In this document: positions 1,641 through 38,698 of the stretch, in pieces
Layout of the letters: every line of letters starts with the position of its first letter
How positions within the stretch are numbered: position 1 is the stretch's first letter
Assembly: GCF_037392515.1 (NCBI RefSeq)
Contig: NW_027133905.1
Location: forward strand, 186,001-250,000
DNA: 64,000 nt
Source of the DNA: Haliotis asinina
Lineage: Eukaryota > Mollusca > Gastropoda > Lepetellida > Haliotidae
Direction of reading: 5' to 3'
Notes under the pieces: model-generated
Told to the model about the DNA's origin: nothing
The model's database searches: none
Seen by the model: only the letters and a program-made list of their open reading frames with translations
Program-made: the position numbers and the translations under genes

Positions 1641-4117
1641 ATGGCTGCCACAGTGCAAATAATAGATAGTAAACAGACCGGACCAAATGGCTTTGAAGGT
1701 TATACAGTGCGTGATTTGAAGGCACACCTGCGGGAACGAGGCTGTCATGTATCAGGGACAAAGGCCGAGCTCATAAAGCGTGCTATGGGATTGAGGGTTC
1801 TGTCTGAAAGGCAGTTCTCCAACACTGACCTTGAGCAGACAGAGGACAAAGTTGAACAGGTAGATCAATGTTGATGTTTCTGATTTAAATTATTTAAAAT
1901 AAATGATTTTTGGCCGAAAATGACATGTTACGACATAATTAGGTTGAAAATGGGTAAAATTTTATTTTGTTTTCCAATCATAGGCTCCCATGTCATTTCA
2001 GTGTACATGATCATGATGATGTAGATCTAGCATATATAATTACACAAATTCTGAATCTATCAATTTTTGTCAAATTTTCATAAAATTCGGCACGACTGTA
2101 GAAAACCATCTCACCTGAATCTGTGTAATTTCAAACTAGAATCCTATCCACACTATTAGAGATACTGTGATTTAATCAACAAAGCATAATTTTTGTGACA
2201 TGTCACTGAAAGTCCCATTGGGGAATCAGCTTGTAAATTCGACTATCATCAATTTATAAAATGAACCAAGCCCAAACACTACAAATACTAAGCTGTTGTT
2301 TCACTTTTTCTTTCTTATATCCAACAACTCCATGAAAAACATTACTAATGTAATGTAAAAAAAATAAACTTTTTTATTATTTAATATTTAATGAATTCGT
2401 TTACATTTTGATCAGGACTCCAGGAAACAGGAGGCAAGGTTTGCAACCTCTCTCGGAGAAAAACTCCCTGAACCCTGGACAGTACCCAGCTCTGAATGGA
2501 CCGACAGTGAAGAGGACATTCCCATTATTAGATGTTCAGATCTTTACAATTATCTTGTCCTAAACAGGAGAACTTTTGATCATAAAACAACAAAAGCAAA
2601 GGGTCAATTGAAAGCGAAAGTATTTTATGAGGAGGGATATGCCCACAAATTAAATATCACAGTATAGCAGTTGAATGCTCCCACTGTTATGTGAAGTGTA
2701 GGGTTATTCCATCCATACCTGGCAGCAAGGAAAATCAAAGACCTGATTATACTCTCTGGGTAGCCCTAGCCAAGATGTCAAGAAATGTGCATGCAGCTGG
2801 TTGCACATGTGCAGTTTAGTTTCCTTCTATACATTTGTAACATAGACAAAATGGTTTCTTTCCATGTTGCAACCCAGTCTTATTAAAATCACATCTAGCA
2901 GGGATCATAACAGGGTAATGGGCCAACATTAAACTTAGAGGAAACTATAACATTATATTTAGATAAAGATATTCGACTGACAAAATGTAATTTCATTTTT
3001 TAAATAGGTACCTATGTAAGCACCTCTGTGTAGCTTTCTAAATATATTAAGGCTGTTGGGCCCATCAGACTTTGTTAATGGAAATGGCTGTTTCAAATGA
3101 CCCCTCATATTTGTCAGATTTGATGATTATGGAACAAATAGAAAAAACGTTCTTGAAACTATCATCCTTTTTTATATTTTCAGGGAAGGTGAATGTTGCA
3201 ACCATGTTTCCACTCTGCTGTATGCCTTTTTTGACATGAGCGAGAAAAAGGAAAAGGGACTGAATGCTTCCACATCTAAGAAGAATAAATGGATGGAACC
3301 GAGAAGGAAACTATCCCCCGTGAAATCTCAAAACCTTATCTTCAAGAAGTACAAGACGCAAGAGAGAAGCACTGAGAACAAGCTGTCATCTTCAACAACA
3401 ACCAACTACTAGGATATCAGATTTGGATAAGATTACCCCAGTAAATGTGTCATCTTTTTGCGACAAGTTGCATGAAATTTCACCAAATTCTGGCTTTCTA
3501 TTATCACAAGATAAGTATGTTAAGCTTTAAGTTAAGTCTCTATCTCCACTTCCCAAACTACACCAAATTGACTTTCTTTATCATGACAGTGTTGATCTTA
3601 ATTCTCAGAACTGCAAGGATGAGTTTCAGTCTTAAAAAGACCTTCAATGATGTTCATGTCAGCCCTGAAACGTGTAGGAATATCGAAACAGCAACCAAAG
3701 GGCAAGCTAATAACCCCAGATGGTACGATGCTAGAGGGGTAACTGCATCCAACTTTGGGAAGGTTTCTCAGGTTCTAGGCTTTAAAAAATTTGACAGTGC
3801 AGCATTACGGAGGGGTGAAGCAGAAACATCATTATTACTATCAAATCCAAGGGTAGTTGGCAATTACCGAGAGGAAATGGTGTGATATTTTCATATGGAC
3901 TCTCAAAGGATATTCTCTTGAGAGAATATATTTTGACAATCGATTCTGGCAGGACATGCTCTATAAACTCAACAGCTTCTATGTATCTGCATTGCTTCCA
4001 GAACTTTTCTCCCACAGAGTTAACGTGACAAAGTTCTCTTCCAGTAACTTTTGTACCACTGTTTCATGTGTTCTCTGTTGTGAAGAACAATTCCACAATA
4101 CTGCGAGAATAGAGTAG
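1641..4117 (+). pseudogene. SAP-SWIM-YqaJ nuclease gene of the transposon, decayed
   Basis: Exon 1 (1641-1859) encodes a SAP DNA-binding motif with YTVRDLKAHLRERG at residues 22-35. It ends at a GT donor that joins in phase to a CAG acceptor, so exon 2 starts at 2416. Exon 2 runs to about 2816 and supplies the first half of a SWIM zinc finger (AAGCTCA near its end). The exon from 3182 supplies the second half (ECCNHVSTLLYAFFDM). A YqaJ exonuclease N-terminal part follows (WYDARGVTASNFGKV near 3720-3770). The C-terminal end of the same family appears at about 3880-4030 (FDNRFWQDMLYKLNSFYVSA). Frame changes occur near 2665, 3412 and 3630, there is a stop at about 3520, and the middle of the nuclease domain between about 3870 and 3880 is missing. 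YqaJ proteins are phage-type 5'-3' exonucleases; here the role would be in transposition or repair of ends. Confidence 0.8.
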
Positions 4118-5025: not shown

Positions 5026-6881
5026 TTAATCTTCTTCGTCATGTGTAAGTGGTGGTTGCATATTTGTCAAGGCAGCACAAATTTTCCATATATGTGTTAC
5101 AAGATGAGTTGTAGTTATTGGCATAACTCCTTGAAGAATGCGAACATTCTTAACTCTTGAAATTGCTCTTTCCACATCAATCCTAGGATAAGCAATCCTC
5201 CTTGTTACCTCCACTTGTGTTCTGTTCAACTGTCTTTTTCTTTTCAGAGGGGGCATGATACGTTTAAGACATCTAAGTGCTGTTAGGTCAGTGATAAGAA
5301 ACCCCTTGTCCGCCATTATTGCATCGCCTGGTTGAATATTACATTTTACAGTCAATTGTTTGTCACTAATAGCTCCTGACTACAAATCGGAGACGAATGT
5401 TATAACACCTGCAGGACTTATGCCGATTAGTGCCTTGTACGTCATATGAATTTTATAATGTGATTACAACAGGGATTTATTAATATTTGATTGTGGAGTC
5501 TCAGTAAATATTTCTGTGCAGTCAATTATTACACGACAGTCAGGATGCACCCGTTTGAATTTCTGTGGCATCGAGTCCATGATTGCTGATTTTGATGGCA
5601 ATTGTATCAAAAAAGAGAGCTTATGTGAAAAGTAACGTATCCAGTGGTTTGTTATGGCACTACATGAAGACACAGAAACCTTGAATCGATATGACAAGTC
5701 CTCAAGCAGTAGTCCCGAGTCGCAGACGCATCATGACAAGAACAAATTCATCAACTAATCTCAGACTTCTTGGTCGTCCAGCATTCCCTCCGCTACCTTT
5801 CCGATTTGTATGTTCCGTAGCATCAGTCATTTCATCAAAACGTAGATTGAAGATTGCTTTTGGAATTCCAGTATAGAACATGCACTTTTCATCATTCTGA
5901 ATAACATCTTCATGTGCTATACCTGGTCTTTCCACCTGAAAACCAACTTTTGGAAAAGATTTCACATTGACTACAGTGTCAGAGCTCTCAGTTTGGCTGG
6001 CAGTTGTTCTTAACTGAACTTTTCCCATGGTACTGATATTAGTGACGGTCACACTAACCTGCTCACATTTATTAAGTGTTCGCAAAGGTGTTTGCTGTAC
6101 AACTTTGCAGTAGTCATGCAAGGACAGAGAAATATTTTCATGTGGAAAATTGTCTCAGCTAGTGAGTGGAATGTTGTTTGACAAGCATTCATCTTCAGAA
6201 TGGCTCTCTGTGCAAGTGACACAACATTTATCTTCCTTGTCCGGCTGATGTACAATTTGGTCTGAAGCTATCTGAAATTAAATGAATGTCTAAGTCAATT
6301 ACTTAGATCTAATCCCATGCAAACCTACATACACTTGGCAAGTGAAGAAAATGTTCAGTCAAACATGTGCTAATAAACATGATAAAGATACAAACGTTGA
6401 AAATATTGTTTTTTAGCATGAAACAATTAATTTGACATAGGTTTGTGGACATGTAAATTGGGGAAAGGACCAAAAAGCCTTAGCGGAAAGCCAATGGCAT
6501 GGCAAGTTACTAATGTCTATTCAATAAATACTAACAAAACAAAGGATTAACTAGACACATGCATCACTTTCATACTTGCCTTTGATAAAGAAAATTTCTT
6601 TACTGTTCCATCTAACCAATAAAGGTTGTTGGTACAGTGCCTTTCACAAACACACCATTAGGAAAGTGGGCAGAACAGAGCCAGTCATTCTTCAGATTGG
6701 CCTTAAAATTTGGGCTCACACTTTTAATTCTTTGCAGCCACACAGCCTGGGTTGATTTATCTGCTGGAAATCTGTGAAGGCTGATGCCATTCACTACTTG
6801 ACCACCATGGTTAGAACACACACAGCAGTAAAGTCTGTTGCATGTTTTCACTCTTGACTGACGATTGCTTGAAGTGGCCAT
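5026..6881 (-). pseudogene. THAP-DDE transposase of the ISL2EU element, broken
   Basis: Read from 6881 down, the first exon (to about 6612) encodes a THAP zinc finger: CCVCSNHG, HRFPAD, WLCSAHF and a terminal VPTTF box, matching the C2CH family pattern. It ends at a likely GT donor near 6618. From about 6250 to 5702 comes a linker and a helix-turn-helix-like segment (GRPRSLRLVDEFVLVMMRLR). From about 5700 to 5026 lies a DDE_Tnp_4 nuclease with visible acidic signatures IDCTE, SDL...ISDKQLT, MADKGF and RIDVERAI. There is a frame change near 5702 and there are in-frame stops near 5463 and 5384, so no active enzyme is encoded. An upstream ATG at 6992 is in frame but lies outside the terminal repeat, so 6881 is preferred. 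Confidence 0.85.
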
Positions 6882-23109: not shown

Positions 23110-24106
23110 TCCAGTCAGCCTTCTTCCCGTAGAGACACAAACCATACTGGATATGGGACTTGCCCCAGGGGGAGGCATAGGACCCGACCAAGAATATCTT
23201 GGTCAAACCATCTCAGATCCACACCACTAGAGTGCGCGAAAGCGACAGGATGGCCTGATAATCCACGCATCAGTGGCAGTTCGCTTAAGCTGCATTGGGA
23301 CAATATGCCATGCCCATGTATGCTTACCTGACGGAGCAAAATCTCCAAAATCAACTCCGGCGGCTAAACCATTTCATGCCCCATGAGCCAGTGCAAAACA
23401 CAACTGGTGCCCGTCAGAGCAAAATGCACAAGTGGCAGCAGACCCAAAACTCCTTATGGACGTCCGCGCGAACCTCTTTCCTCTTGCTGACAGAAACTCT
23501 TCCGAGAAAGAGCCAATTGGCCCCGAAATTTTGGACCCTCACTCTTCCTCGGTTATAGACCTTTCCAAAAATCCTGTTTATACTTGTTTTACTTCTATTG
23601 ATGAGGGAATTTGTGATTTACCTTTAGAGCAACGGAGGCCAATTAAGCAACTCAATGTGTCTTTTCCCAAAAATGAAATTGTTTTACTTAATGAGAAATT
23701 ATCTCTCTAAACCTTTTGCGGACTGTTCCTTACATGAAGTAAATTGCTGCCGCGCGAACCTTGCAGGAACCTCACACAGTTTCTAAAGACAAACCCTCTA
23801 ATAATAACAATTAAACGGTTTCTTGTAAAACTTACTGAAACTCGAGTTCTGCTTTAAAATACGTTCATCAGGGAGTCCAATGTCAAAACGGCAAAAGGCA
23901 ATATGGAGAAAATTAAAACTACAATACAAGCCAACAACAGAAAAGATAATTCTCCAAATTCATCATTCCCCTCAGGCGAAAATAAAGGTTTGGACACAAA
24001 GAAAGAAAACGATGGCATAAGAAAAACAAATTTATCAGATAAAATACACTCCTTAGAAATAATGACAAGCTATTTTACAGGCAACTCAAAAAAGTGGTGT
24101 TGATGA
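23110..24106 (+). pseudogene. Decayed coding stretch of unknown origin
   Basis: One frame from about 23110 to 23708 is coding-like with few stops. Its clearest part is 23432-23710, with peptides such as AADPKLLMDVRANLFPLADR and YTCFTSIDEGICDLPLEQRR. A second short frame (23903-24106) is rich in lysine, serine and asparagine. I do not recognise the family. Mixed polar composition and the setting among repeats suggest an old mobile-element protein, but nothing in the sequence proves a class. Confidence 0.35.
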
Positions 24107-24239
24107 GCATGATAAACGGCCTCCCATGGCTGCTAATGAAAGGTTCTGGAAACAGTTGTGATCTATACCCGGCGACTGTAACCTGGAGGCACCAGGGGGT
24201 GGGGGTGCAAGCATCAACTTGCATCAACAGCTGTCGTAA

Positions 24240-25822
24240 GTAAGCTGATCATAAGTAGGAAGTAGATCTGTCACATCTATGCATGAATACCAGAGCCCTT
24301 GAATTTAGCATAACGGTATGACATCATTTCATTGGACGAAATTTCCCTCTACCACAAACTACTGCATGAACGTCCCCATCTCAGTGCACATTGAAGCACC
24401 AAACTTTACAACTACAGACCAAGGCATGAACAAGTTACATTTTAAACAAAGGTTAAAACCCTTCCTGGAGTTCAAATTTGCCAATCCCCAACAACCCACA
24501 TATCCTTGCAGTAAAGATAGATACAGATTCAGGTTAAATTGCGTTTTGGGTCCATTCTCCGTGCAAAAAACATATATCTACACAAGTCAAAATTACAAAA
24601 ATATGTGGCAAAACCCATTTCGAAAACGTGAAGATATTTAATGTTCCTACCACGTTCAGATCACGTTTGTTTCACAATACCTGAGCGTGTCAAGCACCAC
24701 ATATAGTCTTTTATTAGTCTGTCTTTAATAGTGATTCAGAAACACATACTTTGACCTCGCATGGAGACAGTCACTGGTCTGTCTGGTCCAGACACTATTC
24801 TTCAGAGACCATATCGTACAGTGTCTATTATAGTGTCATGCAACAAGGATGAAGGATGTTGATGAAGAACTAGACAGTCTACAGTCACAACAGGCATTGC
24901 TCGATGATTACAACTTCATAAAACAGAATCTGCCCCTGTTTTATACGTCACATTTTTCTCTTCATCACATAGTTCATATACTAATAAATCGTCATAACGT
25001 CACGGGTCTCATGCAACCCATGAAAAATGAGAAAAGAAATCAAAACAATAGCAAACAAACAAATTGTATGCTGCTGGAGGTAGAAATCAAGAAATGTTTA
25101 TCATATGAAATGTTTATAATAGTGTCCTTTCTTTGAATTTCTCACTTGTTGTCAATTGCCTTTGTTAAGGGTTGTTCCAATGCAATAAGCTGCAGCAAAG
25201 AATAATAGTAGTATAATTGAACAATTAATACATAACTGAATAATCTTTCCCCCAACACACAATCTGCCCGCAGAACCATATGTGAAACAAAATAACTGTG
25301 ACTGAAAGTAACTGTTCAGTTGATTTAAGAGAAAAATTTTGTTATTTATCTTTCTAATTTTGGAATTTTCACATATTTTCTTTACACCAAACTGAATTTC
25401 TTTGGAATGAATGAACGTTTCGACGGTCGAACATTAGGAAACCTGCGAACACTGGGAAACCTGCGAAAAGTATCCAGTATGGGTAAAACAGTCATGGTAC
25501 TTTAACAGTGTTCAAGTGAGAAACAATAAAAAGTACATTGTAACCATTAAGCAATAAACGTTATCTCTCCCTCTTCTTGCTTACATTCGTGTAAGCACTG
25601 TCAATATATTTTATCGACTGGTATGAAAGTGTGCGGGGTAGCGATCATCACAAGGTCCATTTCAGTGCTGAACACCCAAGCGCGAGTCACCTTTTGAACC
25701 AATCGATAAATATGTTATATTTTGGTTTACATTGCAATCAGGGTAGTTCAGAACACTTAACCTGTAAAATATGGAGTGGTATTCATGAAGCTTCTAAAAT
25801 ATTTCTAAGTTTTTCACGTAAG
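24240..25822 (+). repeat. R1 repeat, 5' part copy
   Basis: It matches 8030-9690: AGATCTGTCACATCTATGCA at 24263, ATGACATC...TTGGACGAAATTTCCC near 24320, the ACAACAGGCATTGC block near 24888, and the module around 25620-25745 (GGGGTAGCGATCATCACAAG). A stretch of about 290 bp at 24370-24660 has no counterpart in the first copy. The copy is cut at 25826 by the piggyBac-type element. Confidence 0.7.
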
Positions 25823-26730
25823 TTTCCTTAATCCTCTCAATGCTACCGTCGAACCCATTCGACAGGAGTGCAGGATAATGACATCTCCAAATAAAACTTG
25901 CAATAATTATTCAACGAGTCGGATTTACGTGTCATATGAATTATGTACGGAATGTGCTAATTCTCACCTTTTTAAATATGTAATGTTCAATACGTTTATA
26001 TACCTTAAAACGAAACGCCCGCGAATTAAAAATGAGATCGCCGAATTTCTCGGCACGCAGTCGAAAATAACGGCAATTGTCGACTTCCAGCGCACCACGC
26101 CGTGTGGTACCCAGTCTAATATTTTCTTCATAATGAAATATTTTTTGATCGTTTAGTCTATATTTTTTGTTCCTTGACGGAGAGAAAGCTCATAAGTTTC
26201 CCATTTTCTAAAAATTAGTAACTTTCGGCTCAAATAAATATAAACAAAACCAATCTCAATGTTATATGATCGATTGGACGAATAGAAACGATCATGGCAA
26301 CGGCGGTAAACAAACAACTCCACATGTATCGTGATGCCGAAGAAAATGTGCCATCCTTTTGACATATCCAATTATTTCATCTGGAATTAATTACACGGTG
26401 TGAATAGGTAAATGTTATTGCCTCTGCAGAGAAATTACCAGATTTAGCGATTTTATTTTCATTTGGTTTGATAAACCTTCCAACATTCACAAAGTTGACA
26501 GCCGTTGGTGACCCGAAAGGGCGTGGCCAAACTCGCGGTCTTTCTAAGTGACAAGACACGAAGGATGTTTGAAAATATGCATTCATAAGCAGAATCTGAA
26601 CTCATATACATTGAAAGAAAACGACTCAATACCTATATAATGCAGATCGTGAAACAGTATCACAATATTTGTAATTGTACCCACCCTTGATGAAACCGGA
26701 AGCACGTACACGGCATGGCACTCGTGGAAG

Positions 26731-27223
26731 TAAAATATAAACGAGTTGGAAAACGACCATTGATACATTTTCTAAACTGATTAAAATTCACGTAAGATCC
26801 ATACTATACACCAAAATTACCTTTCAGTCATCCTTAATTATTTACTGTTATTTGTGTTCAATGGTCACAAGAAGTACAATTTTGATGATTGAGGATGTCA
26901 TAAATAAAATCATTTTTCCTTTCGCAGAAATGAACGAAACCAGAGCTAGTGTGAGAATGTAACGTACAGTAAATGTATTTAATACAAATTAATGGCTGCT
27001 TAGAAAACAACTGTCATTGTCTTTGTGAATCAGTATTTATTTTTGACATTAAAACAGCTTAACATCACATCTTTTGTTCACGAATTGGGAGTAAAATGTG
27101 AACGAGTTGGAAAACGACCATTGATACATTTTCTAAACTGATTCAAATTCCCGTAAGATCCATACTATACACCAGAATTACCTTTCAGTCATCCTCAGTC
27201 ATTAACTGTTAGTTGTGTTCAAT
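26731..27223 (+). repeat. 348-bp tandem duplication, second copy split by insertion
   Basis: 26731-27078 is the first copy. The second begins at 27083, breaks at about 27223, and resumes at 35350-35575 after 8.1 kb. The matched arm at 47140-47495 has the segment once, so the duplication is specific to this copy and came before the insertion. Confidence 0.75.
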
Positions 27224-27855
27224 AGCAGTTGTCATTTGTTGCTTTTGTTGTAGTATTTCTCCTGAAGTTAGCCGTCGATGTGTTGATCTTAACCCCCTGG
27301 ATGCCGAGTTTTTTTTCAAGCGCACTTTTTCGTAAGGTTTGAAAAGTGAACGTTGTGCGTGATTTGCGCTCGCGTGGTACTGGATCTGCGTTCGGCTATG
27401 AAATTGCACAGAAATGTAGAATATTTAATTTCCCATCAGTTAGTATAAATATATATGCGGCTGCCTCAGGGGTGTGAGAAACAGACACTGCTAAAAGTTG
27501 TACAAAACTTTTGTGTGTGTTGAAAAACAGTACATTTCTCCGTTTTTTATCGTACACCAATAAAAACACTCTGCTACGGTTTGTTTAATTTGGCATCTTT
27601 ACGGAAAGTGTGAGCGAAGAAAATACAGCTTGATATCTGAACGACATAAGTGTATATGACATGGATGTATGTGCTAATGCATAACGTCATAATCACAAAA
27701 TCAAAAATGACCTGCAATAAATGTCAAAAATCGATTTTCTTCTATGACGTCAAACGTCGACAGAGTATTCATGAACGTAGAAAGATAAGGGGGCATAACT
27801 CAGCCATGGTTTACATTAGGTCAATGTAACTCAGATCACATGGAGAGAATTTGCT

Positions 27856-28041
27856 GTGGATACGGACAGTATATTTTCGTTATGTTTTGTTCACAGTGAA
27901 CCAAACTATTCCAATACAAATTTCCCCAGTGTGAGAGGATACCTTTTGGTAGTTTCACAATTTGTAAGAAAAGATGCCAGTGTACTACATAAAAAAGCAG
28001 GTAATAGCGATTTGGATGGCCCTATCCGATACATATTTTAG
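27856..28041 (+). other. Short open frame, unrecognised
   Basis: A 61-codon frame starting MDTDSIFSLCFVHSEPNYSN with mixed, protein-like composition, ending in a TAG. No domain was recognised and no splice partners were identified. It may be a first exon or chance. It is included because the interior of this 7.9-kb element has few other coding candidates. Confidence 0.25.
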
Positions 28042-29285
28042 TTCTTAGATTCCCATATATTCTCCTGTTTGTGTAGATGTATTTTTATTAATTTTGCATC
28101 ATTATTAACGAAGTAACAGCCACATTTTCAAATGTAATGAAAAAACTGAAAATAATGCGACATTTTAGTTGACGTCACGGCATGTTTTGTGCATTTTGTG
28201 GCGTCGAAAAAGACAGCTCTGCTGATTAGTATATATCTAACCTAATTTCCACTCAATGTGTAAAAGATCTCGGCTTCTGTGTCAGAATTCAACACTTTTT
28301 AGCCAAAATATAAAATGAATGGTTTTATCACTGAAATCCTGAACATGTCAACAATTACACGGTTTTACTACATATCTTATTGTGAGCAACACGCGCACCT
28401 GCCTAGCATCAATTTAGCGTAAATGAAAATTTCACAATACCTGATTATTCATTGAATATTCATTTAGGAAATAGACTTTTCTTCTCATGATTATGAAATC
28501 AATTCCCTTCATAAGTTTGCAATGCAAGGTACAAAGAGATCGCGTTTTCAGTACAGAAGTATTAGAATATGGACGTAAGGCTTGTCCAAATTAAGACATG
28601 ACCTGGTTTATATATTTTTAACAATTTTCGTATAAATAGTGTTTGAGTTAGATATTCTGTCATCAGATATATTTTAATCGAATTTGAATTGACTTTATTA
28701 TCGAAAAAAAAAGATAATGAATCATGAAACGTTTTTGACAAACTCGCACCTGGTCAATTATTATTCATAATTGTTTTGTCTATAAAAACGACACAAACCA
28801 ATACAATGAACAAGACAATTCCTTTAAATGGTAGTATGTGTGCCCCTACATTTCATAAAATGTACAAATCATTTTCATTAATATTATCCGTTTTATTTAC
28901 AAGTTGGAATTAAGTCGCTGTTTATTAACCTGTTCATATGAAACTGCAATATATGCCCCAACGTATTGAATATTGCACATCACGGGGAACTAAAGCACAT
29001 GTTGCTTGCAGTAATGGCTACGTGTGATCTTCCAACACTTGTGTAGAGGCTTAAAATGTGGTATAGTTCACTTACTGAGTCAATTTCCCATGTATCACTC
29101 ATTCTCAGTTAACCGGGACTATTGGGGTCTACTATTGTGAAATCATGAAGTCAAATAAATATGATCCATGTTAACGTTTTCAGTCAGAGGCACATCTGAA
29201 GCAAACTCCTGTAAAATTTCCACACTCGGGGACAAACAGTTTTTTCATTATCAACTCCTGAACATGTGTACTCCATTTCAGCTTA

Positions 29286-31501
29286 GTAATTTACGTTACA
29301 GTGCCTAATTACAAAAAACTTGATACATAACTTAACTTAAAATTGTGATATCTTCGGTATATCATGGAAACAAACTTTCACATATTTTCATCTAACTATG
29401 GAGCCTTATCAATATTCTTAAAATCGGAAAATTAGAAAATCGGTGTAATTTACAAAGTGATATACTTATTCTCAAATATAAATTTCCCACACAAGTAAAA
29501 TATCAAATGTCACTTCTAATTTAAAGAACTGTTTAATTGTATTTGAATGATCTTTTTCGAATTGTTTAATCCTCTAAATCTTACACAACTGACAATAGTA
29601 TATACCCAGTTACCCAGGGTTAGGTCATTTGTCTGTAACGTAAATTACTATTCTGACATTGTTTCAACACCGACAATCAAATTCAACCACATAATTCAAC
29701 TCTTATTTCAGTCAAAAAACTTTTGATAAATCTTTCAAATGATTCTCAATCGCAACACAAACAGCTTTTGAATCATCACAGTTTTGATATTTAAATGAAT
29801 AAAATGTAATATTTTAACACTCAAACATAACGTAAATTACCAAATTCGCAAAAACACATCGACTAAACGAGAAATGCTGCATTTCAGAACATTATCAAAT
29901 ACTCTAAACATTGCAACAGTACAAAATATCGACCACTGTAAGAGTTAGCTACACGTGTGAGGAACACTGGCCATGTTTAAGACCGGTAACGTAAATTACG
30001 ATACATAAGACACATATCCTTGTATCTCAGTAAAAAGTGCAGAAAGGAAATAATGTCTCAAAATGTGTTCTTAACCATTTCTTCCATACAACACTTAAAC
30101 TGAAAGTATGGTCGCTCGACAATAACTGACATTTTCCCTGTAACGAAAAGTACAGTTTTCTAACCTTGTATAAATGTTCTGATGTAGAACACTTACTTTA
30201 ACTCAACAGATTTCAAAGTCAATATGTTGAAGGTAAGTATGTTACTTATGGAATGTAACAGAACCATTTCAGGGGAAATACTGGATACACCGTTGTCATC
30301 CTCTACTACGTCACATGTGGTTTGACTTTTGTTTTGATCTTGATTTGATGCCACAGGAACAACATTTTGATCAATGTCATTTTTCAAAAGTTTCACCTTT
30401 TGCCTGTATTCAGCCACATTCTTTCTTATTCTAATCCTCCTTTTTTATCAGCTCTACTCAGATTTGCTGTTGGTGCATAATATCCTTTATTCCTAAGGAA
30501 TAATTACAACATAATAAGTCGGCAACATATTTTCCTCTTTAATATCATGTATTAAAATGGAACATACTGACACTTTCATACATAAACAGACACTTTTTTT
30601 AAACATCACACATAAACTATCAGAAATACAATATGTTGCTCAATGACACGACTCTTTCATTATCCATGCTAAACAGTAATATTTTATGTGAGGCATCATG
30701 CTTCTAAATGCTTAAAAAGCGAATAAATTATTTCCCAAACACGTCATTTCGATCGCATTAAATGGATGTAATTTACGTTACCAATATGTATCTTACGTTA
30801 CGTATCTATAAAGGGACATTACTCTGATCAACATCATTCAAATATCAAACCTTACTTTCACTTTGAAGGTTCAGTAATTTGAGACATGAAAACCCGATGC
30901 TACAATGAAAAGTCTGATATGTTTTGTCTAAAATATGTCAACTGAAATATTACTTATCAAACTTGCTTCAAGACAATCGTTGATAGTACGTATTTCCTCT
31001 CTTCCCATAATATTTACTGCTTTAATCACTCGGAAAAACTGCTGTGACATGCCGTCTGTGGCCTGCAATGACTGGCATATCTTTGGGGGTTACACCTTTA
31101 CTTCCAGGCCGTTTCCCAAATACGGTGGTAACGTAAGTTACAGTAACGTAAATTATTTCTGGTAATGAAGAAAATGTTGCCACATGGTATGAACACTCAA
31201 TGCATGGTTAGGGCCCATGGCTAACATCATTCCACCTGGCTCCAAGTATATCGGGTCGAATACAGCTGACAGAAGGCTAGGTTTTGAGTTATAACAGTAA
31301 CGTATGATTACATCCTTAAAAATCGGTACTTATGAAGAATATATCTGTCTACGTGGGAGGAAAACTTTATGTTGATTAAGCTAATTTTTTAAACTAATAA
31401 AAACATATCAGTTGACCCACTGAGAAATGGCGTTTTTGTTGACTTTGGCGATGGTTTATCACAAGAACCGATAGAAACAAACAGAGGGTAACGTAAATTA
31501 C
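29286..31501. promoter_or_regulatory. Cluster of a 14-bp motif, GTAACGTAAATTAC
   Basis: Exact copies lie at 29635, 29986 and 31488 on plus, and at 29286 and 30768 on minus. One- or two-base variants lie at 29827, 30140, 30788 (minus), 31128 and 31143, with a 15-bp variant at 31297. The motif is internally symmetric (GTAA...TTAC) and includes TAACGTAA, one base from the TTACGTAA site of PAR/C-EBP-type bZIP factors. Several spacings are 154-193 bp. The surrounding sequence is not repeated, so this is not a simple tandem array. Function is unknown. Confidence 0.8.
30193..30470 (-). other. Basic coiled peptide frame, possible exon
   Basis: Reading minus from about 30470, one frame gives KRRIRIRKNVAEYRQKVKLL, followed by acidic and serine-rich residues (DVVEDDNGVSSISPEM), ending at 30193. 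The start resembles basic, arginine/lysine-rich helices seen in DNA-binding proteins. There is a stop just upstream (TAA in a DKKGGLE-like context), and no partner exon was identified. Unrecognised. Confidence 0.3.
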
Positions 31502-33329
31502 CCAGTCCCTACCGACAAAATATAAATGCATTTTTTGTTTCATTCACGCGGAAATATGGACAAAGTAATATTTGCAAAAGAAACCACATATATCTTGTTG
31601 AATTTATGCTTATAACTTTAAGGAAAAGTCTCTTGGTGTAAGTTTTATGCAAGTTCATTTGTATTTGGTCTCTACTGCCGACATTAGAAAAATAGCGTCA
31701 TTGAACCATATAAATTTGTCTGACGCTTCAAATTGTTTTACTGCAAAGCGTTTGATGTTTGAAAATGATTGTAGATGCTATTATTTGAAATATCTGTACA
31801 TGAAAATTTGCATTTATGCTCAAATTTTAAAGTACAGCCAGCTTATAAGTAGGCGACAGCAATAGTCCCTCTTAACTGAGAATGCGTGGTATGTATTATT
31901 CAAACAATCAAAAGCTTTCAAAGAATAAAAACGAATACCTTATATCCGCACGTGATATGGTGTTGAACATGGATATATGTACATAGTGAAATCAGTTTCA
32001 TGAAAAGGTATCTGAACGATACGCAAAACATACATCACAATACTAAAAGTGCAATCAGAATGACCAGTATGGGCATTGTGTTTACTCTTGTTCAACCGAC
32101 CTTCACCTCAAAGAAATTGCCTAATATGTGCAACAATGTTGACGTGTGACATCACTACCGACAACCGATTTCTTTCAAAATGGCGGCTTCGCTGAGAAGG
32201 GTCAACAGGAATTTGCGAGGACTTTTTGCTTGATTCGGGGATCTTTTGTATATAAATGTGAGATGTAAGTAATCAGAATTATTCTTACTAGCTGTGTGTT
32301 GTTATATGTTCTTGTCGTTTACATTGTAAATGACGGAAGAAGCCAGAAATGCCGATAAGTACCGTTGTCGTTCTGCGTGATTTTGCGTCAATCATGGCGT
32401 CACGTTGCACTAAATGTTTGACAGTTTCTTATGAATTCAGGGATTGACTTGGGCCGCGATATCGCGATTTTCTCGCACCAGTTGCTTTAAAATCGCACTC
32501 AAATCTACCTGCAGCGATTTAAAATCGCATCCTGCTCACCTTTATGATAGGAAGTTTTTAAATCTGTTTTACTGAGAAAGGATTTGTCGTTATTTGGTCC
32601 TGTCAAAGATATTCCCGTTGCTTTTTACGTATTTTTACTCTTCGAAACATAACTTCTGGTATGGAACATCGAACATCGTTACACAGTGCTGCACAAAATG
32701 AGCTGCACTGCAAGGAGTATGGCAAACTCTGAACCTCGCACTACTGTGTTGTTTATGCACTGTGCGACGGTGTACAGAAACGTCACACAAAGGGTGGCTA
32801 CTAACGAAACCATCTTATTCGATATAAAAATCTTTAAATTCTTAAAGACGACGAATGAAAACGAAGAAACAGTTTGACCCTTTCAACACCGTAGGCCGAA
32901 AAATTGGCCAAGACATCGCCAGTCCCCAGGAGCTGTAGCTCGAAAAAACGACCAGTCAGTAGTTGCATCAAAATGATTTATACTTTTCGGAACCTAACTA
33001 ATATATGATTCATTTATCAAATCTTTCACTCTTCATAATGCCTTTCAACACTTATTACATTTCAGATATTTTATCGACAAGGTTAGAATTGTAAACTATT
33101 TTTCGCAATGTTATTGAAAAAAAACTATTCTCACACACATGCTTCGGCAACGGTTCCACATCCGAGTTCTCAGTGAGCAAATCAACAATGCGTAGAGGAC
33201 ATAATTAAACAAATCACATAAACTGAAGAATAAAATCAATAACAATATTCATAAAAATTGTCTAACAAACATTATAACTTACTATTTCAAACTTTATTGC
33301 GCGATCGTGTCATGTCATTCTTTCTCGTT

Positions 33330-33353
33330 TGTGGGGGGTGGGGGGGGGGAACA
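33330..33353 (+). repeat. G-run tract
   Basis: GTGGGGGGTGGGGGGGGGG in an otherwise AT-rich interior of the 7.9-kb element. It could form a G-quadruplex on the plus strand, or be a site of length variation. Confidence 0.8.
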
Positions 33354-36300
33354 GTATCCATTGCTGTTATCTGATTGGCTGACTTAGGTCACTTGTCTGA
33401 TATTGACCAATCACGATCCTTACTGCAGACTGAGTCTAAAAAGCGTCATTAGAAACCAATGTTTATCCAATAAAACCGCTTCTTACAACTATGAAAATAC
33501 TCTTGGCAAGGATACGGCTGTGGCTATATACACGACATCCGTCATTTTGTTGATGTTCAGAGCTTTCGAATGATACCCGCCATCAAACGAATCGCCTCAC
33601 ATGTTATTCATTATCGGACAAAGATTTTAAAATGGTGGTTTTTCACGCTGTTGTATCACGTTACCAAGGGAATTGCCACTGATATCGGGAAATACACGAC
33701 CATACATATTACTTCAGAAATCTTTCTAGAATAATTTTCTGATCGTGTATAAATGAACATATGAAAGAAAAAGTGAAGGGGATGTCATGACTTGTTACAA
33801 ATAGAAAAAAACGCTCCAGGTTTTTCTTCCTCCGTGGTTCATCTAGACATATAAATGTCTATGCCTGCAATTTCATTACAAATTAACTTATTTAAGTTGT
33901 AGTCGTATTACGTAAAACATATGATAAAAGTAACTTTCATATTTATAAACAGTAAGATTAGTCCTTTCAACTGGTGTATGATATGCAGTAGCAATAATGA
34001 TTTATAAGTTGATATTTTCTATTGATAACCATAAACTATGACCTCAGAGTTGCTAGGAACTCGGTGTCATGGAAGTATAATGCCTCTGGTTGACTGGTGT
34101 TGAAAGAGTTAAGTCGTTGACCTTGATGACAACCGGAATGCAGACACCAATGGTGATGCTCGTAGATCTACAGACTTGTAATTCATTGCAACTGAGGATT
34201 GCTTGACTTGAAATTGATTATGACAATGTCTTATTTGTCTCGTTTTCTTTTTCTTCTGAACGATCATGAACAGTTAAATCTCATAAGATTTGAAAAAATC
34301 TCATGCTTTTGATCCCATGTGAGATTTTATCTCACATGTTTTCTGAGCCAGGTTTATCCCTGTGAATTACCAAATGCTTTCATTGTATCTGTTTTCAGTT
34401 TGCTTTTTCTTGCTACGATGCTCTTCCCCTGAATATACTAAGCGTATTGAGCCATTGTAAGCAATGATTAGGCTGCTGGATGTTGGAAAATTTCCGAAAA
34501 TGCTACGCAGTGTAAAATTGGAATTTTTCTTTGTTTACATTTCAGTCAAGCGCTGTCTTTCGAGCACCGCGTTCGTTTTCATACAAAGTATATTTCGTTC
34601 CGTTTTGTCTAGACAGTTGGTATTGGTGACAAAGACCTTCTGTAATTTGATTCTAAGATGCTTGGGGAATTCAATGATGCATTTGTCGCTGCTAACTATG
34701 AAGTGTACATGATGCAATAGGCGTCTCAATACCGGCCTTCTCGAAACGTGATTTTGTAAACACTATCCAATATGGCGGAAAGCGCACTTCGGCGTTCGTG
34801 TAAGCGTATTTTCGAAAACACCCCAACCGATTCTGGGTACATCGGTGACGTTTCAGAATTACCATTACTGGTTACATGAGAACTTGATATCAGTGATCAT
34901 TAATATGCTATTTTTGAAATTCATTACTACCAGTAATTATCCGATTTTCACATTTCAATACATACTGCGAATAACGCTGTGAATCTCGATTTTGTACAGT
35001 TTGAAAAATGGCGACATTTACGATGAAGCCTATTTTGAAAGGCGATTCTAAGCACTTTAGCTTGGTCTGAGATAATAGTGGATGGTATCAAGAAACTGGG
35101 AATTTTCCGCAGAATTCAAAATTGTGAAGTATTTGTATATGCGTGGTATATTTAGAATTTTATTAGATTTCCAAGTGAGGTATGTAGAGGAGGGACATAT
35201 ATGTCCCTGTGGCATCCAGGGGGTTAAGTTTAGCAAATACGAAGTCGATGATTTTCGCGGTCTATTATTTTCAAAGAATGTTCTGACGCGGGGAGACTTA
35301 TAAATTGTCAGTGTGTCGTAACAATAACAGTATATTCTTCTGTGTATATCGTTACAAGAAGTACAATTTTGATGATTGAAGATGTCATGAAAAAAAATCA
35401 TTTTCCTTTTGCAGAAATGAACGAAACCAGAGCTAGTGTGAGAATGTAACGTACAGTAAATGTATTTCATAAAAATTAATTACTGCTTACAAAACAACTG
35501 TCATCGTCTTTGTGAATCAGTATTTATTTTAGACATTAAAACAGCATAAACATCACATCTTTTGTTACTCCAAACAGCAGAGCTTTCGGAGTTAATTCTG
35601 CCTAGTATGATGCAGGTAATGTTTCAGATCAAATTGTTTGACGTGTGTGCATATTTGTATAAATAAATCATGTCATGTGGCTCAGTCCGTGGTTCCATAC
35701 AGCTTTTAGATATTGCACTAGTGCAATCTGAACTGCAAAATGTACCTCATCTTTATGGCCATACTTTTTACCTACGTGCACACTGTCTATGTTCATATTT
35801 TACTGTTAAAACAGACTTCATCTGGGAAACAGACTTATGATCCAAACTCTTGGAGCAGTGATTACACTGACAGTGAATCGAAAGACAGACTCATTTTTTT
35901 CTTGTGATGAAATTTCATGAAGTAATATGAAATTATCACACCAGACCTAGAATAATTTTGTTGTAGTGATGTTTTGAATATGGAATATCAAAACTACAAG
36001 TGACAGATAACTAAGTGTTGAGTAGGAGCTGCAACCTATGTTAGTCTTTGGCATCAAGGTAATCATGTGGTGGCAAGTAAATTTCTTTTTTCCTAATACT
36101 GAGCTCTGCAGTGAGTGGTTTTTGTTGTCCAGTTTGGAGCTATTCTTTAAGATTTCAATTTGGATTTTTTTCCATTGCCATGTGTATATGGCAAAGACAT
36201 ACATGTATATATCAAATGCTTCCAGATCTTTAACGGAAGACTCCTCAGTCCTTGGCATTTTGTTATTCAAGGAAGACTGTTCTTCATGTTTCTTGTTTCA

Positions 36301-38698
36301 TGATGGTTTAGGCTATTGAACACTAAATAATTGGAGTATATCACCATCAGACACTTCAGCAAACAGAAACAATCCTTGAAAGTTCATTAGACCCATTTCA
36401 TATTGTGACATTGCTCCTAAACCCAGGAAAAGACAATAAGGTAGAATAATATATATTTACAGAATATGAAGCCTGTTTACTTTCACCAGAGACAATAAAA
36501 CCTCTTATATGTATATGGTTTCTTTTTTATAACATTTTTTTTGATAACATTTTCTGATAAATTTACATGTACTGTTACTTCAACAACATAATTGACATTA
36601 TTTGTCATGTGCGATTCAAAATAATTCAGCAAACAAAGTGGTACTGTTGAAAACAAAAATAACTCATCACCCATTTGTATTTGATGTACATTTTGGCACG
36701 ATATTATGAAGAGATAAAATACACAAAATAATTTGTAATATCTATCCATATATTTTATGGCATACATGTAGTTGTAATAAAAATTGTGCAAAACTGTCAG
36801 CTTTCCACATTACTGAAAGACATTAATTAAAATTTGGTTATTTACGCGTCGCTAATGCATTGACAGACTTTAAGTGTCTTTGCCCTTGTCTATTCGAGAG
36901 AGAAAAATAATTGTCATATTATTAATATCATTTAACATATTAAAGTATATGAAAAGATTTAAAGTTGTAACCAGTTATGAAACATAAAGCATTGACAAAT
37001 CTATCGTAATTATTCATCAAGAACGTTAATTCATTGCATAAAATTATGAATGTAATTCAACTTGTTCAAAAGTGAGACATATAATTTTCCCAATCATGTA
37101 ATATGAACGCAAGTTTTATCAAATCATCTCCGATTTCATGTGAAACTATAACTGAAAATATATTTTTGTTTATAAAACATGTATACTGCAGTTCTTACTA
37201 CACTACATCGTCATAAAAAGAAAAGCATGAATGTTTTTTTGAAACACAAATGCCACGCCCATATCCGCGCACCTGTTGTTGAGAATGATGTTTGTACACG
37301 TTTCTGTGTTGGACCATGTGAAAAAAAGAATAAGCTGGGATCAACATGCATCACAATTACATCTTTGCTATCTTTATATTCACTGGACAATAAAGTAATG
37401 TGCCGAATATGAACAAAAATTCAAATAAAAGATACTGAAAAACTTGCATCTGCAGTGTTGATCGACTACTGTTTCCGGGTCACGGGAGCATACAAGGTCA
37501 AACTGGTTCGGCTATGTGCGCATTATATAGTCAAAAATACACCAAGAAAATTCTATGAGCTCTGATTAATCACTTTAAACAGTTATTTGTGCTAAATTCA
37601 GACGAAATATCTCCAACTTTTCTGTTCATATTCAATAGCGAATGAATTTCATCAGGCAATCCCCGTCTGTGACATCACATCCGGTGACCTTTGCACTTAC
37701 TAGAAAACAAGTTAGATTTCACGATCTTAATTTTCGTCCGTCTTTCGTCATACTAAACGGAAAATGAGACATGGAACACTTGTAGAATGAGAAATTCTCC
37801 CTCTTTCACCAGGTCTTACACAGAAGAGTTCTGTAATCTTTCTTCTGACCAAAAAAGTTCGACGAAGCGCGCCATGTTTGTTTTTTAGTATGCGTAACAC
37901 CATTTAACACCGTCTTTTTGTGGGTTTGTGCAAAAATTAATGAACCATAACACTTGATATTTGCACTCATGAATGCTTATGAATCATGTATTTTATTCTG
38001 CTATTTTCATTACATGACACGTTTAAATAAACGTAATAGTGCCATTTCAGAAAGACCTGTCATGACATCGAAAATATTATTTGTTTACGACGAACGTTTT
38101 CGATTATTTTATTTTCAGAATTATTTTTTTAATTTGTCGTCGCGCGGATATTTGCCGATACAAATATACGAAATTAAAGTCAGATACTTATGAAATATCA
38201 GTAGTAAGAATATTGAAATCAGTTTGCGATAATTGGACAATTTATACGGTTCCTAGTATAAAACGCATCCGGCTACCAATCGAGTAATTCAGGTAAATTC
38301 TGGAAAATTTACTTTATTTATGTTTGTCTTGTAATTAATATCTGTACGTTTGAAATTATCTGGATATTTTTTTATAATAATGTTTATTTTTGTATGTAGT
38401 ATTAATGAGCTGAATATTTTTTCAGTTGTCCCTTATTTAGTGGCGCACTGAGTGTTTGAAATCACCCACCTTCTTATTAGCAAAAATTCTTCGTTTCTTT
38501 CTTAACCCAGTCTATGAAAAATTCTTAGCTAAAACTGTTCTTACAACTTAGAATTGTCTAAGAAGACATCATAAAGCAAGATGGGATCGTATGAACCGGA
38601 CAAGTGGTGTGCAAATGACGTTTCGGAAAACCCCATGTCTAATTTAACTTACGGAGACGAACTCTTCAGTCGGAAAGATCTTTTTAAGCAGACGAGAA

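Follow-up and report, generated by a model that had tools for sequence, protein, structure and literature searches.

The window analysed here, the whole stretch of 64,000 bp from Haliotis asinina (C33:186001-250000), harbors a dispersed cluster of the 14-mer GTAACGTAAATTAC between positions 29286 and 31501. Motif scans with this 14-mer found five exact sites, three sites with one mismatch and three with two mismatches (Table 1), and all 11 matches with up to two mismatches in the whole 64-kb window lie inside this interval; each of the six matches outside it carries three mismatches. When up to three mismatches are allowed, the window contains 18 matches, compared with a mean of 9.25 and a largest value of 17 in shuffled sequences. 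One more site, which has an extra base, was read by eye; it was missed by the motif scans, and its place matches that of sites in other families. The cluster of five exact sites and six near variants reported in the first-pass annotation is thus real, and so are the recurring spacings of 154, 154, 158, 191 and 193 bp, which are present in other families too. An Rfam search of positions 24000-38000 gave no match.

Table 1. Features of the window that belong to the 14-mer cluster and to the two elements carrying it (TIR, terminal inverted repeat; TSD, target site duplication)
Feature	Position	Strand	Remark
Outer host element, TTAA...CCCCCTGGATGCC ends	27289..35227	.	7.9 kb; outside the site system
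TSD GTAT, left	29092..29095	.	
Nested non-autonomous DNA transposon with 14-mer sites	29096..31888	-	2,793 bp; strand as for the transposase gene of L020, a longer copy
29-bp TIR, downstream end (relative to lost gene)	29096..29124	+	
Exact site	29286..29299	-	190 bp inside downstream TIR
Exact site	29635..29648	+	
Site, 1 mismatch	29827..29840	+	
Exact site	29986..29999	+	2-mismatch match 29991- overlaps
Site, 2 mismatches	30140..30153	+	
Coding remnant near transposase N terminus (..RRIRIRKNVAEYRQKVKLLKND..)	30279..30489	-	ORF 30193-30444 on -; continuous with gene in L020/L031
Exact site	30768..30781	-	Direct pair with 30788, 20 bp apart
Site, 2 mismatches	30788..30801	-	Direct pair with 30768
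Site, 1 mismatch	31128..31141	+	Direct pair with 31143, 15 bp apart
Site, 1 mismatch	31143..31156	+	Direct pair with 31128
Variant site GTAACGTATGATTAC, one extra base	31297..31311	+	By eye; place matches other families' sites
Exact site	31488..31501	+	387 bp inside upstream TIR; equal distance in L012
29-bp TIR, upstream end	31860..31888	-	
TSD GTAT, right	31889..31892	.	

The 14-mer sites belong to a separate element that is nested in an older TTAA element. When window positions 25000-38000 were compared by BLAST with the 14-mer-cluster loci, homology was found to start at 29090-29096 in nine of ten copies with unrelated flanks (29246 in L010) and to end at 31876-31888 in nine of ten (31852 in L021). 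The 29-bp inverted repeats read CACTCATTCTCAGTTAA..GGGACTATTG and CACGCATTCTCAGTTAA..GGGACTATTG, with GTAT outside both. In locus L022, the motif element stands next to a copy of the outer TTAA element that lacks the insert; the length of this empty site equals that of the two joined window flanks minus one GTAT, and two bases differ. The empty site, the shared borders and the TIRs with GTAT together establish a nested element (29096-31888) in an older one (27289-35227), and the view that the sites are a feature of the 7.9-kb TTAA element is wrong, since the L022 copy of the latter lacks the insert. The nested element has TIRs and a TSD of fixed length, as expected of a cut-and-paste DNA transposon. 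The outer element, which we take to be piggyBac-like by its TTAA-CCCCCTGGATGCC ends only, is about 3.1 kb long in its L022 copy; the nested element is flanked by GTAT, not by the TTAA of piggyBac. A 220-bp direct repeat (92.7%) flanks the outer element on both sides (26861-27078 and 35348-35566) and carries GTAACGTACAGTAA at 26959 and 35446.

Both ends could be located in ten of the 13 copies of the nested element (A/B), and in seven of these ten the 4-bp flanks are identical. Three of the seven (window, L017 and L018) represent one insertion in duplicated DNA; the flanks of L014, L019 and L020 share 3 bp. Long stretches of window positions 25098-36146 are about 99.0-99.9% identical to L017 (C11:52.25M) and L018 (C11:52.51M), which lie 258 kb apart, so that the window copy is not an independent insertion, and C33 (273 kb) may be a duplicate or haplotype contig. 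TIRs are also found in c3 (the copy at C3:35.04M), L041/L043/L044, L042 and L034. Among these relatives, the TSD is ATGA in the C1 copy of c3, TAAT in L043 and ATAT in L042; it is inexact in L044, L034 and the C3 copy of c3, and L041 is not assessable in this respect. L009 and L018 have extra DNA, interpreted as nested insertions, whose long ORFs resemble Tc1/mariner transposases by eye. Two satellites are associated with related termini or sites. In the related element L027 (1440-2411; C8:6.43M), 63 tandem copies of the 15-bp unit ATAACGTAAAYTACA, counted by hand with up to three mismatches, occupy the position of the 15-bp pair, and this satellite seems to have grown from two sites; in L025 (782-1112; C9:55.05M), the TIR start and flank together form a 31-bp tandem repeat (GGTTCATAGT-CACTCATTCTCAGGCAGATTT) that reaches the element end and seems to grow outward from the transposon terminus.

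A longer copy, L020 (C13:45.19M), contains about 1.8 kb of extra DNA at the window junction 30279/30280, whose minus strand encodes fragments of a large protein in a damaged frame. As L020 keeps this damaged transposase-like gene, the window copy is a deletion derivative, which has lost most of the gene and kept both ends. A decayed gene of L030, Harbinger-like by eye and with no Pfam match for its first piece, had been considered as the possible transposase and was dropped because a gene was found in L020, a member of the window family. A 188-aa middle piece of the L020 protein, used as a query, has 65 matches in the genome. Long open frames of 854 aa (L032 and L033), 857 aa (L042, without the expected start methionine) and 872-876 aa (L043, L041 and L044) are present. 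The 854-aa frame occurs at two loci that agree at 99.96% over 5,093 bp but differ in their flanks, indicating that this family moved recently. Protein identity to P0001 is 58% for P0003 (L042), 52% for P0004 (L035), 44% for P0006 (L020 piece) and 39% for P0002 (L041). The motifs DFxENY and DxPxxQY are invariant in all six aligned proteins, and NYFE(A/T)GHGKGPCDG is present in four of them; P0005 is without it and P0006 ends before it. The pattern of acidic residues suggests a putative DDE/D catalytic core, in which these conserved residues would have the catalytic role. In Pfam scans every match was below the cut-off, the best being PLDc_3 (E 0.0012) for one L020 piece and DUF5614 (E 0.008) for P0001, and a PDB search with the transposase-like proteins gave nothing better than E 0.95; neither Pfam nor PDB identified a DNA-binding or catalytic domain in them, and no relatives were confirmed in viral and prokaryote contigs. 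A 937-aa ORF at L045 (1736-4546; C8:59.44M) is related at 26% identity to P0001 and is accompanied by no GTAACG-type sites; its C-terminal part reads by eye like an OTU-type protease, and L045 may have a motif of its own.

In the scanned genome of 1.14 Gb, exact GTAACGTAAATTAC occurs 89 times versus 22 times for the reversed pattern, which refutes an equal density of the 14-mer across the genome. According to a tally by hand, 54 of the 89 sit in the 13 copies of the nested element, six in five loci with a related TIR (L016, L024-L027) and 14 within about 2 kb of transposase homologues; only 15 are left over, compared with 22 for the control pattern, and the excess over chance is thus accounted for. 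Enrichment of the degenerate motif GTAACGWAMATTWC is mild (309 versus 233 for the reversed control). On one contig, C1, 13 transposase fragments are spread over 1.5 Mb (24.27-25.77M; L001-L008 and L046), eight of which each have a single exact 14-mer at a distance of 1.5-1.8 kb, and this cluster is read as a local amplification or a domesticated gene array.

Related elements carry the sites in similar number. A count with the degenerate motif, two mismatches being tolerated, gave 12 sites in c3, 11 in L035ext, 10 in L041, 12 in L042 and 10 in L043, whereas random sequence drawn from a first-order Markov chain (6 and 5 draws, whole fetched stretch) gave 0.2-1.0; the 13 hits in L020 become 11 once overlaps are merged, and few or no sites were found in L034ext (4), L046 (2) and L045 (0). 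Five of the six families examined thus have 10-12 sites per element. None lies inside the gene proper, and open frames are touched at their edges only. Two sites of c3 (2720 and 2743) precede the likely start codon (2776), another in-frame ATG lying further upstream at 2740, and a site of L042 (4801) touches the open frame upstream of the likely start. At the other edge, a site contains the TAA stop codon in the L020 piece (4079-4092), L041 (2725-2738), L043 (4246-4259) and L044 (2108-2121), which represent two families, and the first site after the stop follows at 3 bases in L042, 11 bases in L035 and 175 bases in c3 (at 5450).

Families in which the DNA between the sites can no longer be aligned have largely kept the distances and orientations of the sites relative to the ends. 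Measured in bp from the upstream TIR, sites lie at 387-, 733-, 1088+, 1108+ and 1444+ in the B copy L012 (1108 and 1088 being the equivalents of the window pair 30768/30788); at 180-, 377-, 567-, 722-, 737-, 1059-, 1078+, 1438+ and 1461+ in c3; at 385-, 574-, 729-, 743-, 1253+, 1431+ and 1452+ in L044; and at 181-, 320-, 475-, 490-, 812-, 831+ and 1191+ in L042. From the downstream TIR, the positions are 190-, 539+, 731+, 890+ (overlapped by 895-) and 1044+ in the window, 199-, 560+ and 911+ in c3, 190 (both strands), 568+ and 711+ in L044, and 198-, 546+, 879+ and 1045+ in L042. At both ends of B/A, c3, L044 and L042, sites near the TIR point one way and those deeper inside the element point the other way; an exception is L035, in which three downstream gene-adjacent sites (5017, 5175 and 5195) have the opposite orientation. 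The ends of L016, L024-L030 and L034 were scanned with three mismatches allowed, and some of the sites found in this way are due to chance. The first downstream site was placed at 182- in L024, 190- in L025, 184- in L027, 188- in L029 and 183- in L034, of which L024, L025, L027 and L029 share some near-TIR DNA with the window element and are therefore not independent. Upstream, L034 has sites at 387-, 730-, 744-, 759-, 1062+, 1083+ and 1287+, in partial agreement with B, c3 and L044, and opposite-sense hits at 739+ and 1292-. The 387-bp site was found at one of four upstream-type TIRs, that of L034, and not at those of L025 (the TIR at 1102), L028 or L030, and the expected first site is absent in L026 and L016.

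BLAST comparison of site-masked upstream flanks gave nothing for B/c3, B/L044, B/L042 and c3/L044; c3 and L042 share 21 bp, and L044 and L042 have a weak 40-bp match at different positions. In the three of six family pairs that were compared with random placement, orientation being ignored, sites coincide within 12 bp for four of five sites from B to c3 (P 0.004), three of five from B to L044 (P 0.017) and six of nine from c3 to L044 (P 0.0004). L042 was left out of this test because of a shift of about 247 bp, relative to c3, in its upstream sites after the second. The four-site block that extends outward from the 15-bp pair, with ends set by hand at the sites, measures 374 bp in the window (A) and in c3, 372 bp in L041 and L044, and 323 bp in L042. 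The between-site DNA of this block scores barely or not at all above shuffled sequence, with z of 0.2-1.4 between families and of 0.1 to 2.4 with L042; between L041 and L044, which are of one family, the block aligns at 98%. An older tandem array with conserved flanks, which had been named at first as the finding that would explain the cluster away, does not fit, since there is no between-site similarity among A, c3 and L041/L044.

Judged from these sequence comparisons, the sites are probably binding sites for a protein encoded by the element, most plausibly its transposase, which would assemble both ends at a fixed geometry. We infer that the transposase is the binder and that binding is needed for transposition. 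The low site numbers of L034ext and L046, the absence of sites from the distant relative L045, the departures from the layout and the mild enrichment of the degenerate motif count against this reading, as does the lack of a Pfam or PDB match to a DNA-binding or catalytic domain. In this mechanism, the array would consist of some 10-12 asymmetric sites per element in most families, placed outside the coding sequence apart from the one that overlaps the stop codon in two families; it would span about 0.7-1.5 kb from each TIR, with one orientation nearest the end and the other further in and with distances held near multiples of about 180 bp. Several protein units would bind the array and bring the two ends together at a fixed geometry, the catalytic domain would be loaded on the CAC termini, and the ends would be cut and joined with a 4-bp duplication. 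The window copy, which has both flanks and little else, would be moved in trans. The initial description of the cluster as a bank of binding sites holds best in its version of transposase subterminal sites, and its bZIP option found no support beyond the resemblance of TAACGTAA.

The identity of the sites varies with the family. Versions of the motif include GTAACGTACATTTC, GTAACGAACATTTC and GTAACGTAAATTAC, one version being common to c3 and L042. Position 9 is A in 11/11 sites of L020 and C in 12/12 of c3, 10/12 of L042 and 9/11 of L035; position 13 is A in 10/11 of L020 and T in 12/12 of c3, 12/12 of L042 and 10/11 of L035; and position 7 is A in 9/11 of L035 and T in 12/12 of c3. L044 is mixed, with A in 6/10, 5/10 and 9/10 sites at positions 7, 9 and 13, respectively. 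The number of differing motif positions rises as protein identity to P0001 falls (none in L042, one in L035, two in the L020 piece and about three in L041), an order that consists of four comparisons and hence of few. If the binder is encoded by the element and co-evolves with its sites, a parallel change at about ten dispersed places in one element is to be expected. A point against the binding-site reading is that, in a comparison of close copies of the window element, the sites show no clear excess of conservation over random blocks (0.0177 versus 0.030; P 0.063, 6 blocks), though the choice of sites favored conservation.

It is rather improbable that a host transcription factor, for example a bZIP protein of the TTACGTAA type, binds the sites and drives or silences the transposase gene. 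Such a factor would suit the core TAACGTAA, which we take to resemble bZIP sites, as well as the sites just upstream of the likely start codon in c3 and L042 and those on the stop codon or within 11 bp of it in the L020 piece, L041, L043, L044, L042 and L035; among the Pfam matches of the transposase-like proteins themselves, no bZIP is listed. However, a single host factor leaves unexplained why the sites changed in parallel family by family within one genome, and a host factor also leaves unexplained the comparable first-site distances and the mirrored orientation at both ends. The flip of orientation in both flanks suits end recognition better than it suits a promoter. A regulatory role gains some ground from the orientation exception in L035 and from the sites at the stop codon.

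When close pairs are merged and the TIR is taken as zero, neighboring sites are separated by 139-199 bp, by 333-387 bp and in one case by 517 bp, and the intervals cluster near multiples of about 179 bp. The best period is 181 bp in c3 and 179 bp in A/B, each reached by none of 5,000 random placements, and 181 bp in L044 (P 0.0036) and 174 bp in L042 (P 0.0004), likewise against random placement. For this test, which does not include L035 and L034, positions were typed by hand and close pairs were merged at their midpoint; the A/B row is a composite of the window, L020 and L012 and includes the variant site 31297 (577 bp). The families compared share ancestry, so their spacings are not independent draws. 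A step of about 179 bp is close to the nucleosome repeat length. As a more speculative extension, which we regard as unlikely, the transposase would read a ruler of about ten family-tuned sites at multiples of about 180 bp, one per nucleosome repeat, and would assemble on chromatin-wrapped ends; site identity would co-evolve with the enzyme, and only spacing and orientation would be kept over deep divergence. The same interval clustering near 179 bp is the point in favor of a chromatin or replication element, in which sites set once per nucleosome repeat would organise the element and be recognised by a chromatin or replication factor instead of the transposase. This alternative is quite improbable, as it does not explain the variation of the sites by transposase family, and no clear nucleosome-like G+C or poly-A/T pattern was seen between sites in 12 single and 7 double intervals. 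Finally, a functionless remnant of internal tandem or segmental duplication, to which the amplified 15-bp unit of L027 and a weak internal similarity around the sites in a self-alignment of the window element would lend some support, is highly improbable, given that families with unalignable between-site DNA differ in spacing by no more than a few to about a dozen bp and that dispersed sites changed in parallel.

A site array of up to about 1.5 kb per end that has lost all alignable sequence but kept its spacing and orientation would be an unusually clear case of constraint on the geometry of DNA only. Since several protein-site pairs, near-identical recent copies and long open frames are available in one genome, co-evolution is directly testable, and if the step of about 180 bp reflects nucleosomes, it would show a transposase coping with chromatin at its own ends.

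The arrangement has partial counterparts among known transposons. CACTA (En/Spm) elements have subterminal motif repeats that are recognised by an element-encoded protein, and the motif differs between families (PMC2613891). As in the TNPA repeats of this group, a short motif occurs many times inside the TIRs in direct and inverted orientation, and the ends begin with CAC. Unlike the arrays found here, with about 3-9 sites per flank over up to about 1.5 kb, Tgmt* repeats are dense, with 24 in 732 bp and 4 in 159 bp (PMC2613891). CACTA elements also have CACTA termini, a 2-3 bp TSD (3 bp in the elements with TNPA repeats) and a tnp2 transposase, whereas the TSD is mostly 4 bp here, the ends read CACTC, CACGC, CACCC or CACCA, and no tnp2 match is listed in the Pfam scans of P0001 and of the six proteins. 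The Chapaev elements of the CMC group are characterized by a 3-4 bp TSD and CAC...GTG termini (PMC4079192), as are A/B, L034, the L041 family and the right end of c3, but L042 begins with CGCC and the left end of c3 is GATCC. Chapaev transposases correspond to PF06918 (PMC3985635), which is not among the Pfam matches listed for P0001 at E<=1 or for the six proteins at E<=0.1. An assignment to Chapaev was not made because of this missing match.

The superfamily is left open, and Sola, compared by description only, is a better lead than Chapaev; presumably, the D..D..HxKxxxD blocks resemble those of Sola. Sola elements are described as having a DDD transposase, a 4-bp TSD and mostly a length of 2-9 kb (PMC10741241), and the mean length of Sola1 is 5,445 bp in a curated bivalve library (PMC10294476). 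The present elements likewise have a mostly 4-bp TSD and fall within 2-9 kb, with 5,093 bp in the 854-aa family, about 4.86-4.87 kb in L043 and L044 and about 4.85 kb in L042 (by end coordinates). In Sleeping Beauty, the spacing between transposase sites matters (PMC8151067), and its IR/DR ends resemble the present ones in having more than one transposase site each; Sleeping Beauty differs in an inner and an outer site per end within about 230 bp, a TA target and a Tc1/mariner transposase. Repeated short sites near the ends are used by the transposase in hAT elements as well (Hermes and Ac), which differ in an 8-bp TSD and in terminal regions of 150-200 bp (Tol2). In the literature searched, which was covered in part, sparse arrays that span up to 1.5 kb per end and keep their spacing beyond sequence similarity are not described.
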